64,000 nt of DNA from Permianibacter fluminis. GTDB taxonomy: Bacteria > Pseudomonadota > Gammaproteobacteria > Enterobacterales > Permianibacteraceae. Shown here piece by piece: positions 25,811 through 33,034 of the stretch (the first letter of the stretch is position 1; every line of letters begins with the position of its first letter). The position numbers and the translations under genes are program-made. The stretch is taken from NCBI RefSeq assembly GCF_013179735.1, contig NZ_JABMEG010000001.1, positions 1,116,001-1,180,000 of the forward strand, read 5' to 3'. The notes beneath the pieces are model-generated. The model had not been told where the DNA came from. It worked only from the letters and a program-made list of their open reading frames with translations, and ran no database searches.

Positions 25811-27169
25811 TCAGCGCGCTTCGCTGCTGCGCGGTGTCAGCACCCGCTGTTGCAGGTGATACCAGTCGACCTTTCGGGTCAGCAGCATGGCCAGCGTCAG
25901 CAAACCAAACAGCAGGCCACTACCGATCAGCAGGGCAAAATCTTCCGAGCCCAGAATCAGGTACAGCGCGCCATACAGCACCGCCAGTGCTACGCCAAAA
26001 CCCAAAGCCGTCAGTACGCTGCGCAACACCGCGCTGAGATAGGCGATGATCACGCCGATACAGCCGGCCGCCGCAATCAGATACGCCCAGACGAAAGCAA
26101 TGTGCTCCGACAGTGATAGCAACAACAGAAAGAAAAACGCCAGCGCCAGCCCGACCATGCCGTATTGCACCGGATGAATGGCCAGTTGCTTCATGATTTC
26201 AAACAGCAGGAAGGCGCCGAAGGTGATGCCAACGAACAAGAAAGCATATTTGGTCGCCCGGTCGCTTTTGACGTAGACATCGACCGGGTCCAGAAAATCG
26301 ACCGAGAACGCCTGATTCAGCACGTCATCACAGCGTTCGGATTCCATGCAGTTCTGCCAGCGGCTTGGCATATTGGTTGCGAGCACCGACGTCTGCCAGT
26401 TGGCGTCAAGGCCGTCTTCGCGCAGATCTTTCTGATCCGGTGTTGCGTTGCCCCAGAACCGGGCGTGTGGCCAGCTGGAACCAAGCGACCAACTGGTGTT
26501 GTCGGCGACCGGTACCACCGACAGCGTTTTCAAACCCTGCAATTGCAGGCTGATGACAAAATGCTGGGGGCCACCGGCCTGCAAGGGTGGCAGATTCGCG
26601 TGCACGCCTTGTTCATCGTGCAAGGGCAGTCGACTGCCGGGCTCGAAGGCGAGTGGCGCGGCATTCCACTGCAGCATTTGCAGCTGCTTGATGCCGCGCT
26701 GCTCACTGACTGACAGCGCCAGGTAAGGCGTGTCGAACAGATACTGTTCATCGGTCGGCACGGTGACGCCGTAATCCGCCGGCAGCTCAAAATCGCCGGT
26801 CAGCTGCAGCGCGGCCCGGTAAACCGGCACCTGAAAGATTCCGACCGGTTTTTGTTCAATGTCGACTTTGCTGTCCACCTGCAATTGCCGTGGCAGAAAG
26901 CTCAACTTGCCGGCACGGGTGCGCTGAACGCGTATCGGTTTGTCGTCCTTGTCGCGTTCATCGGCCCAGTAGCGATGCTCGAACGGAACGATCAGTACCG
27001 GCGCCACCACGGCCTGCGTACCGGCGTTGCTCTGACTCACCGAATCGATGGCCTGCTGACGAAAATTGCTGCGTTCCTGAACCAGATCCTGGGTCCAGAT
27101 CAGCGGAATTTGCAGCACCAGAAATAAGAAAAACAACGCACCTGCCTTGAACAGCCATTGCCACTGCAT
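25811..27169 (-). CDS. creD: CreD inner membrane protein
   Basis: The start is ATG 27169 (452 residues), chosen from GGAGAG upstream. It has one N-terminal helix (FFLFLVLQIPLIW), a large periplasmic domain (~40–300) with SQSNAGTQAVVAPVLIVPFEHR and QLTGDFELPADYG, then a cluster of C-terminal helices starting at ATKYAFLFVGITFGAFLLFE. This layout is characteristic of CreD, the envelope protein that is the most strongly induced gene of the CreBC regulon. A CreB-tag-like direct repeat precedes it. Its molecular role is not established. Confidence 0.92.
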   Translation of the reverse strand: MQWQWLFKAGALFFLFLVLQIPLIWTQDLVQERSNFRQQAIDSVSQSNAGTQAVVAPVLIVPFEHRYWADERDKDDKPIRVQRTRAGKLSFLPRQLQVDSKVDIEQKPVGIFQVPVYRAALQLTGDFELPADYGVTVPTDEQYLFDTPYLALSVSEQRGIKQLQMLQWNAAPLAFEPGSRLPLHDEQGVHANLPPLQAGGPQHFVISLQLQGLKTLSVVPVADNTSWSLGSSWPHARFWGNATPDQKDLREDGLDANWQTSVLATNMPSRWQNCMESERCDDVLNQAFSVDFLDPVDVYVKSDRATKYAFLFVGITFGAFLLFEIMKQLAIHPVQYGMVGLALAFFFLLLLSLSEHIAFVWAYLIAAAGCIGVIIAYLSAVLRSVLTALGFGVALAVLYGALYLILGSEDFALLIGSGLLFGLLTLAMLLTRKVDWYHLQQRVLTPRSSEAR

Positions 27170-27238
27170 GTCACTCTCCATTACCGGAACGGGTGGCGAT
27201 ACAGTGGCGGTATCAGGTGAGTGGCGAATGAGCGTCAG

Positions 27239-27254
27239 GTGAGGATTGGGTGAG
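27239..27254 (-). promoter_or_regulatory. CreB-tag-like direct repeat upstream of creD
   Basis: Read on the minus strand the site is CTCACCCAATCCTCAC, two CTCAC half sites separated by six bases, against the known TTCAC-N6-TTCAC tag. A second, weaker match lies at 27217–27232. It sits 70–85 bp before the creD start, a plausible activator position. Confidence 0.55.
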
Positions 27255-27286
27255 GATGGCAAACTTTATTGCCAAACAGGCAGACT

Positions 27287-28732
27287 TCAATCAGCGCCGA
27301 AGGTATCGGCCGCTGCAAACCGCAAGCTCACCAGCACACCGGTCGCGTGGTTTTGCACCGTCAATTGACCGCCATGCAGCGTCATGACTTCGCGGGCAAA
27401 ACGTAGACCCAGCCCGCTGCCTTTGCGGCCATCCGGGCGCGGCAACGAATAGAACCGCTCGCCGAGCCGCGGCAGCGCATAGTCCGGAATCGGCGGACCG
27501 TCATTGCGAACATCGATGACGAGTCCGGACGCCGTTTGCTGTGCATCGATGCAAACTGTGCTGCCGATGTCAGCGAAAGCTATGGCATTGTCGAGCACGT
27601 TGACCAAGGCCTGTTCGAGCAAGAACCGTTCGCCGCTGATCGCCAGTGTAGGCGCGCCAGTCAGTTGCCAATGCAGTTGCTTTGCGCTCAGCAAAGCCGT
27701 CAGCTGACCGATGGCCGCTTCGACCAACACCGACACCGGCAGGGTTTCGCGGTGCTCCAGCGCTCGCCGCTGCTCCAGCTTGGCCAACTCCAGCAAACGC
27801 TGGATCAGTTGATGCAGGCGCTCGCTTTGTTCATGAATGCTGCGCAGGAATTGCTGGCGTTTGTCCGCCGGCATTTGGGCATCAGCCAGCAGTTCGGTGG
27901 CGGCCTGAATTGCGGCCAGCGGGCTCTTCAGTTCGTGGGTCAGCGTATGCACATACTGCTCGACGTAATCCTTGCCTTCGAGTTTGCTGCGCATGGTTTC
28001 CAGCGCGTCGGTCAGCTTCTCCAGCTCGGTGCCGCGGGCGAACTGCGGTGGTTGCAATTTCTGGTTGTCACTAACCGCCAACGCATAGTGGCTGACCTGA
28101 CGCAGGCTCCAGATCAGCCAGCTGGTGAAGCCAACGCCGATCAGCAAGGAAAATCCGAGCAGCACCACGCCGTAGCGCAGTAGCGTCGCGCGCGCGGCAT
28201 CAATGTACGGCTGGGTGCTTTGATTTGGCAGTGCAACGGTCAGCACACCGATTATCTTGTCGCCGTCGCGAATCGGCGCGGCGACATGCATGACGGTGCT
28301 TTGTTCGTCGTCCGGTGTCAGCCGGCTGGAGCGGACGCCGTATTCGCCGCGCAGTGTCAGGAAGACATCGTTCCAGCGCGAGAAATCCTTGCCCACCGCT
28401 TCGCCGCTGCTGTCGATGAGCACGATGCCATTGGCATCGGTGATATAAATCCGGAGCGCGAGTCGGGTTTTGTGCTGGCGCCAAATCGTCGCGTCGAGAC
28501 GGGTCTGTGCCAGCGTCTGCAATTGTCGGGCAATGTCGCTGCCGACCAGATCGCCGCGTTGCATGCTCGGTTGCACCACCAGCGCCAGGGTTTGCGCCAA
28601 CTCGACCAGATTTTCCTCGCTGACTTGCCGCACCACCGGCTTCAGTTCATCCAATACCAGCTTCAGGCTCAACCACGCCGTCAGGCCAACGATGAGGAAA
28701 TAACCGAGAAATAGCCGCAGGCCAAGTTTCAT
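27287..28732 (-). CDS. creC: Sensor histidine kinase CreC
   Basis: This 481-residue kinase has a first membrane helix (~5–27), a periplasmic sensing region (~28–180, with IYITDANGIVLIDSSGEAVG resembling a double-Cache-like loop), a second helix (~184–205), HAMP-like linker, HisKA domain with phospho-acceptor His266 in THELKSPLAAI, and an ATPase domain (NVLDNAIAFA; DGRKGSGLGL). It phosphorylates the CreB regulator; the signal is linked in E. coli to growth on fermentation products or glycolytic carbon. It follows creB by 24 bp. It is separated from creD by 117 bp. Confidence 0.92.
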   Translation of the reverse strand: MKLGLRLFLGYFLIVGLTAWLSLKLVLDELKPVVRQVSEENLVELAQTLALVVQPSMQRGDLVGSDIARQLQTLAQTRLDATIWRQHKTRLALRIYITDANGIVLIDSSGEAVGKDFSRWNDVFLTLRGEYGVRSSRLTPDDEQSTVMHVAAPIRDGDKIIGVLTVALPNQSTQPYIDAARATLLRYGVVLLGFSLLIGVGFTSWLIWSLRQVSHYALAVSDNQKLQPPQFARGTELEKLTDALETMRSKLEGKDYVEQYVHTLTHELKSPLAAIQAATELLADAQMPADKRQQFLRSIHEQSERLHQLIQRLLELAKLEQRRALEHRETLPVSVLVEAAIGQLTALLSAKQLHWQLTGAPTLAISGERFLLEQALVNVLDNAIAFADIGSTVCIDAQQTASGLVIDVRNDGPPIPDYALPRLGERFYSLPRPDGRKGSGLGLRFAREVMTLHGGQLTVQNHATGVLVSLRFAAADTFGAD

Positions 28733-28756
28733 GACGTCATGTTCTCGCGGCGGCCA

Positions 28757-29446
28757 TCACGATGATCGCTTCAGGCTGTAGCCGAAGCCGCGATGGGTGA
28801 TGATGGGGTCAGCCGCCGAATCCACCGCGCGCAATTTGGCGCGCAGCTGTTTGATCAAGGTATCGATGACCCGGTCGGTACTGTCCTCGGATTGCGGCCC
28901 AAGCGCCGCCAACAATTGCTCGCGGCTGAACACGCGCCCGGGCTGCGCCAGCAAACAGGCCAGCAGCAAATACTCCGAGCGGGTCAATGGCAAATCGTGC
29001 TGACGAAACCGGATTGCTGCGCGCGTCGGCTCGTGAATCCATTCGTCATCTGGCGCTGGAGCAGGCGAGGCCGCCATCGGCTCAGCATGCCGCCGCAAAA
29101 TCACTTTGATGCGCAGGATCAACTCACGCGGACTGAACGGCTTGCCGACATAATCCTCGGCCCCCAGTTCCAGACCGACGATACGATCCACCTCTTCGTT
29201 ACGCGCGGTCAGGAACAACACCGGCGTCGGCTGAATCGCCCGCAGCGCACGGCATAGCTCAAACCCCGTTTGATCGGGCAGGCCGACATCGAGTATCAAT
29301 AGGTCAAAGCGTCGTGCCTGAGCTGCCAACAACGCCGCCTGCCCGGTCAGGCAATGGCTAACCCGAAAACCGTCACGCTGGAGCGCAAAAACCAGCGCAT
29401 CGGCAATGGCCGGTTCGTCTTCAACCAGAAGAATATTGGCAGACAT
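28757..29446 (-). CDS. creB: Response regulator CreB (OmpR/PhoB type)
   Basis: The 229-residue protein has an N-terminal receiver domain (LLVEDEPAIADALV; phospho-Asp53 in LLILDVGLPD; LFLTARNEE; GAEDYVGKPF) and a C-terminal winged helix DNA-binding domain (LTRSEYLLLACLLAQPGRVFSREQLL…VDTLIKQLRAKL…HRGFGY). It activates the Cre regulon by binding direct repeats; such a repeat is found before creD. It is first in the creB–creC–creD order and is divergent from the DUF3142 gene. Confidence 0.92.
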   Translation of the reverse strand: MSANILLVEDEPAIADALVFALQRDGFRVSHCLTGQAALLAAQARRFDLLILDVGLPDQTGFELCRALRAIQPTPVLFLTARNEEVDRIVGLELGAEDYVGKPFSPRELILRIKVILRRHAEPMAASPAPAPDDEWIHEPTRAAIRFRQHDLPLTRSEYLLLACLLAQPGRVFSREQLLAALGPQSEDSTDRVIDTLIKQLRAKLRAVDSAADPIITHRGFGYSLKRSS

Positions 29447-29621
29447 AGGACAAAGCTCATGGAGTCACTGCCAACAGCATAGCAATGCACGCGATGCCAA
29501 GCCATGGCAGCACAACACCGATATCATGTTGGCGACAAGCAGGTGGCCGAGCATTCGCTAGGCGAATTTCAATGCTTGATTTAGGATAGCGACACCAAAC
29601 TCTCGACATCTGAATCACCCC

Positions 29622-30827
29622 GTGGCCGCCAAAAAGATGCTAAAGACAGTCGCATTAGCTCGGGCGTTGCTGCTTTGCTTTTTACTGCCAAACGGCAGTT
29701 CGCCGACGACCTTCGAGCACCAAGTTTATGTCTGGCAACGGCAGTGGTTACCAGAGCATCGCGAATCTATACGCAAAACAGAGGGTTTAATCTCGGGGTT
29801 TCGAGTGTTGTCCAGTCAGCTCCATCCGCGAACTGGTTGGGTATTCGCGCGGGTTGATCTGCCACTGCTTGCTGCCGAAGGTCGGCCGGTCGTTGCGGTA
29901 ATTAGGCTGGATGGCGCTTTGGCCGATTTGCCTATCAATCAAGTTTCCCTGCAGCTGAAGAGGACTATTTCGACTTGGCTCGATGCTGGCGTCAGATTGA
30001 CCGGCATCGAGTTTGATTACGATTGTCCCGCCAGTGCGCTGGCTGGCTATCGAGCCGCGCTGGTGCGTTGGCGCAATGCGGTGCCCGCGCCGCTTACCTT
30101 GAGCATTACGGCGCTGCCGTCATGGCTCGACAGCGCAGCGCTTGATGGTCTGCTTGCAGTTGTCGATCAGTCTGTCCTGCAGGTTCATGCGGTTCAACAA
30201 CCGACAAACGGGCTGTTCAGCGTTGAGCAGGCATTCGCTTGGAGTTTGCGTTGGGCGGAGCGCAGCCCTAGCCCATTTTTTCTGGCACTCCCCGCCTATG
30301 GGGTCGCGCTGATCCACGGTGCCGGCGGCGTTAGCGTGGAGTCGGAAACCATTTTGCACAACAACAGCCCTCGCGACGAACTCCATTCCGACCCAGAAGA
30401 TGTTGCACGGCTGATAAGTAAACTGCGCAGCCACAAGCCAAAACATCTGGTGGGTCTTATCTGGTTTCGACTACCGCTGGAAACGGACCGGCGAGCGTGG
30501 CCTTGGCAAACCCTGGCTGCTGTGATTTCCGAGCGGTCCCTATATTCTCAGTTGGAAATTTTGCTGTATCAAAAGGGTTTTTCTGGTGATGTCTCAATCC
30601 GAAATACAGGCAATGCTCCCGCGGCACTTCCCGACCAAGTTGTGCTGAACGCAAATCATTGTGAGGCGGGTGATGGCGTGTCGGGCTATCGCTATTCTTT
30701 TGATGGTGAAGTTGCGACCTTCAGACGGAGCGACTCGCGCACCATGCTCGCCGCAGGGAAGTCAGTGCAGATTGGTTGGCTGAATTGCAAAAAAATAGAA
30801 CAGGATGCTGCAAATGACTCAAATTAG
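29622..30827 (+). CDS. DUF3142-family exported protein
   Basis: The start is either GTG 29622 or ATG 29637; the protein has ~400 residues. A hydrophobic N-terminus (ALARALLLCFLLPNG) suggests export. The DUF3142 signature is VYVWQRQW at the mature start, then GIEFDYDCPASALAGYRAALVRWR and LTLSITALPSWLD, a pattern resembling a TIM-barrel glycoside hydrolase strand order. The end (ISIRNTGNAPAALP, GYRYSFDGEV) looks like a beta-sandwich. The family has no assigned reaction. It overlaps the next gene by 14 bp, so the two are translationally coupled. Confidence 0.75.
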   Translation: MAAKKMLKTVALARALLLCFLLPNGSSPTTFEHQVYVWQRQWLPEHRESIRKTEGLISGFRVLSSQLHPRTGWVFARVDLPLLAAEGRPVVAVIRLDGALADLPINQVSLQLKRTISTWLDAGVRLTGIEFDYDCPASALAGYRAALVRWRNAVPAPLTLSITALPSWLDSAALDGLLAVVDQSVLQVHAVQQPTNGLFSVEQAFAWSLRWAERSPSPFFLALPAYGVALIHGAGGVSVESETILHNNSPRDELHSDPEDVARLISKLRSHKPKHLVGLIWFRLPLETDRRAWPWQTLAAVISERSLYSQLEILLYQKGFSGDVSIRNTGNAPAALPDQVVLNANHCEAGDGVSGYRYSFDGEVATFRRSDSRTMLAAGKSVQIGWLNCKKIEQDAANDSN

Positions 30828-32943
30828 AAGGTCCGCAATGGTAGTTGCCATAGCTGCATTACTACCCATTGCTTCCGACACTTATGCGTGCGGAGCACGG
30901 TTTCCCAATCAGTTACTGGATGACCGGGCGGCAACGTTAAGCGAGTTGCCTGAAGGGAATTTTCGCTATGAGATGCTGCGTTTCGGGATGCCACTACCAG
31001 GACTGACCACGGTAACGGAAGCAACCGTCAGCCCGAACTCCTACTTCTGGGAAAGCGACGATGACGGCGAATCGGTGCCGGAGCAGGCGCGCCTACGCTC
31101 GGAATACGAGCAGCAGGAACTGCCGTCGGAACAGTGGATAATTGTGAAAAAGATGCGGTCAATGACCGATGCTCAGTCGGCTGAAGCCGTTGGCGAGTCG
31201 TTGTCAAGAGAGCTTCGGTGGTATACCGCCGGCGCCGTCGCTGTTGCGGTCGATGACCGAGTACTTGCAAAAAGTTACTTTGAACGAGTGCTCTCGCTGC
31301 CGCCAGCGGAAAGAAAATCCCGCACCAGTTGGACGCAGTACTCGTTGGGCGTTTTGCTGGCAAGCAGACAGGAGTGGGCTGCCGCAAAAGCGATGTTCGC
31401 TGAATTGCGCGCTGCCGTGGCGAGCGGCAATGCTGATCCCCTGGAGCTCGCCGTGGCGAGTCTCGGCGAAGAAGCACGTATCGCCATGGCAGAGGGGGAG
31501 TGGCCGACCGCAGTGCGACTCTACAGCAGCCAGCTTGCGCATGGCTCGGAAAGTGGCTACGCCTCACTACTTCGTCTGGCAGAGTCAATGCTCGCGCTAC
31601 CCGATGCTGAGCTGGAAGCTGCTATGAATGATGGCTCCGTTCAGCAATTTCTGGCTGCGTACCTATTCAGTCGTGGTGCCTACGACCATAGAAATTATGC
31701 GAGGGTCGCCAAGATTTTCGCACGGACAAACGTTGTTGAGCTTTCTTCACTAGATCGACTTGCCGCCGCTAGCTATCAATACGGTGATTATGACAGTGCC
31801 CGTCGCTTTCTCGAAAAAGCCGGTGACAGTGGTTTGGCTTGGTGGTTACGGGCAAAACTGGCGCTGCGCTCCGGCGACAAGGCCCTGGCACAAAGCGCCT
31901 ATGCGCAAGCAATGAAATCGTTTCCGAAAGAGGAGGTGTGGGGCGAAAAGGTCACGGAAAATGGCGAGTATGAGTCGGTCATGCCGCAGTGTCGCGTCAA
32001 GGCTGAGGCTGCAATTTTGTCGTTGGGGCGCGGCGATTACCTGGATGCCCTTGATCTGCTGATGCAAGGGGCCGAACTCTACTGGCTCGATGCGGCAACG
32101 CTCGCGGAGCGGGTACTGACTGTGGATGAGCTCAAGAGTTTCGTCGAGAAACACACGGTGCCGACACCTGCCAGCAAAGCGCAAGAAGGGTCCCATTTAT
32201 GGGGGGCACAGGATTATCATCAGCTTTTGCGAGAGTTGCTGGCACGTCGGCTCATGCGAGCTGAGCGTTACGATGAAGCAGTTTTATTTTACGGCTCGCC
32301 TGAGCTTCGTGAACTCGCTACGCGTTACGGGCTGGCTCGAAAGCAAGCCAAGTCACGCTGGACCGCAACTGGCCGCGCTTCAGCCGCATACGAAGCGGCA
32401 ACATTGCTACGCCAATCCGGCATGGAGCTCATCGGTTTTGAAATGGCGCCAGACTTTTCCGCCGCAGGGGGAATGAGTGAGTGGGCAGAGACGAAAGAGC
32501 TCGATGAGTGGCGAACCCCGACTGAATTATCGAGGCTGGAAGAAAGCAGGGCACGACCGAACAAACGCTTTCACTATCGGTACGTAGCCGCTGCGTTGGC
32601 GAATGAGGCGGCAGACCAGTTGTCTCCACGAAGCCAAGCATTTGCGGCGACGCTTTGCCATGCAACCGAGTGGCTAATCTATCGTGACGGGGATGCAGCG
32701 CAGAAAATTTATCAGCGCTACATAAATGAAGGGCCTTACGTTCCTTGGGCGGCACATTTTGGTCAACTTTGCCCTGAGCCTGATTTTCAGGCAGCGCAGA
32801 CCTTGCAGTGGCAGGAAACGGTCAGTGCGGCGCGGCTAAAGTTACGCCCCTTTAAATGGCTACTTGCCGCCGGCTCGTTTGGTTTGTTGGCCTTGGCATC
32901 AATGCTGATGTGGCGCCGACGGAAAAGATCGAGCGAGGGATAG
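30814..32943 (+). CDS. Exported TPR-like helical repeat protein with C-terminal membrane anchor
   Basis: The start is ATG 30814 (709 residues), because AGGA lies 8 bases upstream and overlaps the DUF3142 end. A signal peptide (MVVAIAALLPIASDTYA) is followed by a Cys near the mature N-terminus. The body is helical and Ala-rich, with repeated TPR-like units (for example WTQYSLGVLLASRQEWAAAK, SGDKALAQSAYAQAMK and YLDALDLLMQGAELYWLDA). One membrane helix near the end (FKWLLAAGSFGLLALASMLMW) is followed by RRRKRS, so the bulk is periplasmic. Together with the DUF3142 protein it probably forms an envelope complex; function unknown. Confidence 0.72.
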   Translation: MTQIRRSAMVVAIAALLPIASDTYACGARFPNQLLDDRAATLSELPEGNFRYEMLRFGMPLPGLTTVTEATVSPNSYFWESDDDGESVPEQARLRSEYEQQELPSEQWIIVKKMRSMTDAQSAEAVGESLSRELRWYTAGAVAVAVDDRVLAKSYFERVLSLPPAERKSRTSWTQYSLGVLLASRQEWAAAKAMFAELRAAVASGNADPLELAVASLGEEARIAMAEGEWPTAVRLYSSQLAHGSESGYASLLRLAESMLALPDAELEAAMNDGSVQQFLAAYLFSRGAYDHRNYARVAKIFARTNVVELSSLDRLAAASYQYGDYDSARRFLEKAGDSGLAWWLRAKLALRSGDKALAQSAYAQAMKSFPKEEVWGEKVTENGEYESVMPQCRVKAEAAILSLGRGDYLDALDLLMQGAELYWLDAATLAERVLTVDELKSFVEKHTVPTPASKAQEGSHLWGAQDYHQLLRELLARRLMRAERYDEAVLFYGSPELRELATRYGLARKQAKSRWTATGRASAAYEAATLLRQSGMELIGFEMAPDFSAAGGMSEWAETKELDEWRTPTELSRLEESRARPNKRFHYRYVAAALANEAADQLSPRSQAFAATLCHATEWLIYRDGDAAQKIYQRYINEGPYVPWAAHFGQLCPEPDFQAAQTLQWQETVSAARLKLRPFKWLLAAGSFGLLALASMLMWRRRKRSSEG

Positions 32944-32957
32944 CCAGCTTCATGAAG

Positions 32958-33034
32958 TGGTGGGCCCTACTGGACTTGAACCAGTGACCCAGCGATTATG
33001 AGTCGCTTGCTCTAACCAACTGAGCTAAGGGCCC
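32958..33034 (-). tRNA. ileX: tRNA-Ile (CAU anticodon, lysidine type; ileX-like)
   Basis: It reads on the minus strand from GGGCCCTTAGCTCAGTTGG to the encoded CCA (32958–32960), with a full cloverleaf of 77 bases. The anticodon loop is CGACTCATAATCG. The anticodon stem and T arm match tRNA-Ile2 of E. coli rather than elongator tRNA-Met, so the CAU is expected to be modified to read AUA. Confidence 0.92.

Follow-up and report, generated by a model that had tools for sequence, protein, structure and literature searches.

In the PelA/PelB, PgaB/PgaA, and BcsZ/BcsC systems, a barrel-shaped carbohydrate enzyme works together with a periplasmic tetratricopeptide repeat (TPR) protein. The gene pair considered here, found within a 64,000-nucleotide (nt) stretch of the Permianibacter fluminis genome (contig NZ_JABMEG010000001.1, positions 1,116,001 to 1,180,000; hereafter the window), resembles these systems in joining a barrel enzyme, in this case a member of the DUF3142 family, to a TPR-like protein, and differs from them in that the partner has no outer-membrane barrel and that no synthase genes lie nearby. 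The only DUF3142 protein with a solved structure is TfeC of Yersinia pseudotuberculosis (PDB 8y6t and 9vtv, titled chitinase), which has been reported as an antifungal effector of the type VI secretion system (T6SS) T6SS4 (reviews PMC13162877 and PMC13008689) and described as a chitinase (PMC13008689). TfeC shares with the window protein the PF11340 family, the barrel, the D-[FY]-D motif, and the Y/T/W positions; it differs from it in being a short form without the C-terminal beta-sandwich, whereas the window copy is long and has its TPR partner downstream, and in being a reported T6SS effector, whereas the window genome has no T6SS sheath gene. New in the present analysis are the near-obligate pairing of DUF3142 proteins with exported helical partners across three DUF3142 forms, the connection of this system both to TfeC and to a GH18-like fold, and the ruling out of a T6SS for the window copy. 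The pair is widespread, is built on a known enzyme family, and is apparently undescribed as a pair, no description of the two as such having been found in the literature searched, which contains a single paper mentioning DUF3142 and outside of which most subscription journals fall. A first-pass annotation of the window had proposed a two-component envelope system, a reading that both the near-obligate pairing and the predicted structures support.

The pairing was assessed by scanning 84,980 species genomes with a DUF3142 alignment, which yielded 80 loci picked on the DUF3142 protein alone. In 77 of them, spanning Pseudomonas, Xanthomonas, Serratia, Klebsiella, Escherichia, Achromobacter, Herbaspirillum, Shewanella, Gluconacetobacter, and others, the partner gene lies directly downstream on the same strand. 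As for the three exceptions, one locus (L076) stops at a contig edge, the partner of a second, from a Lysobacteraceae metagenome-assembled genome (L097, the same genome as G422), sits on a different contig, and no partner was found within the stretch examined around the DUF3142 gene of Tahibacter aquaticus (L064). Among 59 relatives, the two families occur in the same two genomes only and adjoin in both, with the overlap of the genes seen in one (G052). In an independent phylum sample of 398 genomes, long-form DUF3142 is carried by nine, all nine of which hold the partner, and there is one further genome with a strong partner match; this co-presence has a hypergeometric P of ~1e-17 by genome and ~1e-13 by genus, values that ignore phylogeny. 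Both genes are present together even where they are unlinked (G422 and G453), and distances in the DUF3142 and partner trees are correlated (r = 0.92, n = 73), to which common vertical inheritance contributes. Far from failing to co-occur, an outcome that the first-pass annotation had named as refuting it, the two families pair beyond chance, and their near-obligate co-occurrence is real.

Short-form DUF3142 proteins, which lack the C-terminal beta-sandwich, have their own exported helical partner of ~700 residues; in all 16 of their loci its gene comes immediately before the DUF3142 gene, an order reversed with respect to the long form, and the open frames overlap by 31 nt in several loci. 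A third form has an exported helical partner of ~840-900 residues downstream in both of its two loci. TfeC itself falls within the short form, whose profile it matches at E 5.5e-78; the long-form profile also matches 8y6t (E 3e-12). The DUF3142 barrels of the three forms are clearly related (hhalign E 6e-21 and 5e-8); on the side of the partners, the short and third profiles are related (E 1e-8) and the long and third are not detectably so. The pairing habit is thus general among DUF3142 forms, but the partners may not constitute one family. Two genomes (G712 and G569) gave weak DUF3142 Pfam matches below the curated cut-off, with no partner beside either; the open frame of G712, judged by eye, resembles a histidine kinase.

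The DUF3142 protein of the window matches PF11340 over the whole profile (1-202 of 202) with an E of 4e-70 and 236 bits, for a gathering cut-off of 30. Its AlphaFold model consists of a TIM barrel and a beta-sandwich (predicted local distance difference test score [pLDDT] 93, predicted template modeling score [pTM] 0.88), and the top structural matches of this model are chitinases of glycoside hydrolase family 18 (GH18) and SleL, a GH18 spore-cortex peptidoglycan enzyme (Z 19-21), with 250-260 residues aligned at 9-16% identity. The protein is like GH18 chitinases and SleL in its barrel (Z about 21) and in an E-x-D-x-D motif aligned on their D-x-D-x-E, and unlike them in this identity level, in an Asp for Glu replacement, and in having no match to the GH18 profile PF00704 at E up to 1. 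No other GH18 chitinase was found in the window genome by Pfam scan. The carbohydrate-active barrel predicted by the first-pass annotation is borne out by this model, and the structures of the pair, a GH18-like barrel and a helical superhelix, did not turn out to be those of unrelated known enzymes; the statement that neither product has a known function is outdated as regards the DUF3142 family, with TfeC deposited as a chitinase. At the level of the putative active site, the G-I-E-F-D-Y-D stretch aligns at the GH18 D-x-D-x-E position in a weak local hhalign alignment (E 0.016), which informs the position of the motif, not homology by itself. The window protein does not carry the GH18 signature DxxDxDxE with its catalytic Glu; E-x-D-x-D is found instead, and the first Asp of the motif is missing. 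Across 60 sequences from the three DUF3142 subfamilies, D127 is found in all 60 and position 129 is D or E in all 60; the position of the GH18 acid/base Glu is occupied by Asp in 58 of them, namely all 58 long and short sequences (TfeC also has Asp there), Glu being found only in the third form. Together with D127, the residues W33, R90, Y138, T158, and W163 are kept across all three forms.

The partner has no named family in Pfam or NCBIfam. It matches TPR_2 and TPR_14 weakly and over a single repeat (24.8 bits for TPR_14, with a cut-off of 23.5), and its model is a helical superhelix in which a long C-terminal helix bears a hydrophobic segment (pLDDT 89, pTM 0.82), all helical save two short strands (residues 377-380 and 386-389) and devoid of a beta-barrel. 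Its fold matches are led by general TPR structures with Z 11-12, values that helical repeats can reach without relationship. If the TPR_14 score and the TPR-like superhelix liken it to TPR_2/TPR_14 proteins, it departs from them by its one sequence-detectable repeat, by an invariant Cys-Gly (Cys26 in 46 of 46 sequences, followed by an invariant Gly27), and by two further near-invariant Cys. Its C-terminus carries a single hydrophobic segment followed by RRRKR. The ~700-residue helical protein with a C-terminal anchor that had been anticipated is therefore recovered, as a superhelix model with a membrane helix in most lineages, and the anticipated export of both products agrees with hydrophobic N-terminal signals on each. 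On the DUF3142 side, a lipobox is present in 36 of the 74 homologs scored. Over these 74 loci, 36 combine a DUF3142 lipoprotein with the C-terminal helix of the partner, 13, including the window pair, have the helix only, 25 have neither, and none has a lipoprotein without the helix, a pattern that fits a unit which would keep at least one membrane anchor.

We propose, with middling confidence, that the pair is one functional unit, an envelope-anchored hydrolase of N-acetylglucosamine (GlcNAc) polymers held by a dedicated TPR scaffold. Gene overlap, co-occurrence, co-inheritance, conserved catalytic-type residues, and complementary anchors are demonstrated and the barrel fold is predicted; hydrolytic activity, substrate, physical binding, and the scaffold role are what we infer for the pair. 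The exported, GH18-like DUF3142 protein would cut a polymer containing GlcNAc within the envelope or close to it, with peptidoglycan or chitin-like glycans from outside as candidates, and would probably rely on D127 and D129 where GH18 enzymes usually have a D-x-E pair. The TPR protein would be co-exported, bind the DUF3142 protein, and fix it at the inner membrane via its C-terminal helix, such that hydrolysis could be localized or controlled. With a DUF3142 lipoprotein, the two proteins together may span from one membrane to the other, and when the DUF3142 protein has an N-terminal anchor only, as in Serratia, the partner loses its own anchor. More tentatively, DUF3142 enzymes could generally be two-protein machines, with at least three subfamilies each having evolved, in either gene order, with its own exported helical scaffold, and TfeC could be a specialized antifungal offshoot of an envelope-resident glycan-processing system with an Asp-variant GH18 active site. 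The proposed unit would give a testable role to two gene families that occur in many Proteobacteria (among them Pseudomonas, Serratia, Achromobacter, Shewanella, and some E. coli) and are annotated as DUF3142 and as hypothetical or TPR protein. It would also reframe TfeC, the reported antifungal chitinase, as most of the relatives sampled are paired with an exported protein and a T6SS is missing from many of their hosts. Several observations nonetheless weigh against a single hydrolase-scaffold unit. A GH18 enzyme would normally be less active with Asp at the position of its catalytic Glu, and the activity, substrate, and binding ascribed to the long form are themselves inferred. The long and short partner profiles are only weakly alike (E 2e-4, probability 44%), and a common partner family is therefore not established. 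The two genes are unlinked in T. aquaticus, in the Lysobacteraceae assembly, and in G453, the additional partner-bearing genome of the phylum sample (G746) has no DUF3142 match, and the surroundings of the pair hold no third gene, conserved from genus to genus, that could name the substrate. Finally, the anchor pattern is partly phylogenetic and dominated by a few clades, Serratia making up 16 of the 25 loci with neither anchor.

It is conceivable, albeit unlikely, that the DUF3142 barrel binds glycans without catalysis, as a GH18 pseudo-enzyme of the chitinase-like-lectin type, and that the pair forms a glycan-sensing or tethering complex. The Asp at the acid/base position of every long and short sequence is what such a protein might display, and the fold matches of the model include GH18-like lectins such as SPG-40; however, TfeC, a short-form protein sharing the D-F-D motif, was deposited as a chitinase and is described as one (PMC13008689), the putative active-site residues are invariant over three subfamilies, and the third form does have Glu. 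That the pair would rather process or help secrete an exopolysaccharide, in the style of PelA/PelB, PgaB/PgaA, or BcsZ/BcsC, strikes us as distinctly unlikely. The same division of labor between barrel enzyme and TPR scaffold speaks for it, as do the location of the Escherichia coli pair near pdeH and the bcs cellulose genes and the presence in several Pseudomonas of an adjoining short gene, PilZ-domain-like by reading alone, no search having been made; yet across genera the pair comes without an associated synthase, exporter, or outer-membrane barrel, and the partner model itself is barrel-free.

A delivery of the DUF3142 protein by a T6SS, as for TfeC, with the TPR protein as its adaptor or immunity protein, is suggested by the reported role of TfeC in T6SS4 (PMC13162877, PMC13008689) and by the presence of a sheath gene in 14 of 27 DUF3142-bearing genomes. 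Nevertheless, no VipB/TssC match was found in the window genome (99.5% complete) or in 12 of the 26 others, and the T6SS route therefore does not explain the window pair, T6SS dependence being ruled out in this genome by the missing sheath gene; besides, the long form carries export signals and lipoboxes and no T6SS genes were noticed beside the pair, which makes this explanation very unlikely overall. As to the idea that the two genes are mere neighbors with no functional link, the few genomes where they are unlinked might be invoked in its favor, but it is hardly credible given the 77 adjoining loci out of 80, the reversed and overlapping arrangement of the short form, the correlation between trees, and the co-presence of both genes in unlinked genomes.

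The two open reading frames lie head to tail on the window's plus strand, with the DUF3142 gene first (table 1), and overlap as the first-pass annotation had stated. The latter had placed the partner start at 30805, which is indeed the first in-frame ATG (712 residues, 23-nt overlap with the DUF3142 gene); the true start is likely ATG 30814, because of the AGGA 8 nt upstream and because 57 of the 77 related loci have a start codon at exactly the 14-nt overlap, with a Shine-Dalgarno-like motif in 44 of these 57. This conserved geometry points to translational coupling of the two genes.

Table 1. Coordinates of the pair and of its features within the window.
Feature	Position	Strand	Remarks
DUF3142 gene	29622..30827	+	GTG 29622 or ATG 29637 start, giving 401 or 396 residues; putative GH18-like exported enzyme
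DUF3142 N-terminal hydrophobic export signal	29637..29714	+	signal type predicted from sequence; no lipobox in window copy
TIM-barrel domain	29715..30536	+	residues about 27-300 of the 396-residue form; GH18 matches over model residues 24-300
E125-F-D127-Y-D129 motif	30009..30023	+	end of barrel strand 4; aligns with GH18 D-x-D-x-E
C-terminal beta-sandwich with conserved Cys pair C342, C384	30552..30788	+	long form only
AGGA Shine-Dalgarno-like site	30802..30805	+	8 nt 5' of ATG 30814
Gene overlap, 14 nt	30814..30827	+	probable coupling of translation
Partner gene, exported TPR-like protein	30814..32943	+	709 residues
Partner signal peptide ending TYA	30814..30888	+	precedes invariant Cys26-Gly27
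Helical TPR-like superhelix	30925..32730	+	residues 38-639; predicted model
C-terminal long helix, membrane segment, RRRKR tail	32785..32937	+	model and sequence

Upstream of the pair, creB, creC, and creD, for the CreBC two-component system and CreD (25811-29446, minus strand; NCBIfam equivalogs above cut-off), are oriented divergently and share with it the intergenic stretch 29447-29636. A control of the pair by CreB was rejected, with no cre-tag within two mismatches in this stretch; over the whole window, cre-tag matches with at most two mismatches are fewer than expected by chance. No sigma-70 promoter match was found in the intergenic stretch either.

The DUF3142 and partner trees both place the window pair, with moderate support, beside Pseudomonas and Xanthomonas and not beside Rheinheimera, which belongs to its own order. 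A horizontal gain of the pair as a unit is plausible. The pair was not found at the corresponding site, or in the rest of the genome, in a congeneric (G001) and a confamilial (G002) genome. This site is next to a tRNA-Met gene (cat anticodon, 32958-33034, minus strand) beside rpoD, an arrangement kept in both genomes (L197/L198); on the far side of the tRNA gene, the DNA is different in each genome, as in a variable site next to a tRNA. Other candidate origins and roles were rejected: no related locus was found in viral contigs and no PHROGs match below E 0.02, PADLOC gave no match for anti-phage defense, and plasmid-borne spread is represented by one Xanthomonas sacchari plasmid among 72,556 records. 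In E. coli, the pair is present in 27 of 5,426 complete genomes, between kdgK and yhjJ in both regions read, and an ISKpn26 element is annotated inside the pair of strain E22 (NZ_CM143899.1, 256122-260551). As the pair is naturally present in some strains and absent from close relatives, what it does to the envelope is directly measurable. Recurrent neighbor clusters correspond to local synteny, for example, rpoH/ftsX and liv genes in Serratia. Some loci depart from a single intact partner: two overlapping partner-like genes follow in tandem a single DUF3142 gene in Enterobacteriaceae bacterium B14 (L044, 9282-13317), and two such genes lie on the opposite strand ~14 kb from the DUF3142 gene in G453 (L185, 4774-8449). 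In G270 (L024, 8812-9156), an open frame of 134 residues whose match is confined to the C-terminal part of the partner is possibly a remnant, and in Serratia rubidaea NCTC12971 (L073, 9127-11187) the partner is broken into three open frames, by decay or sequencing error.
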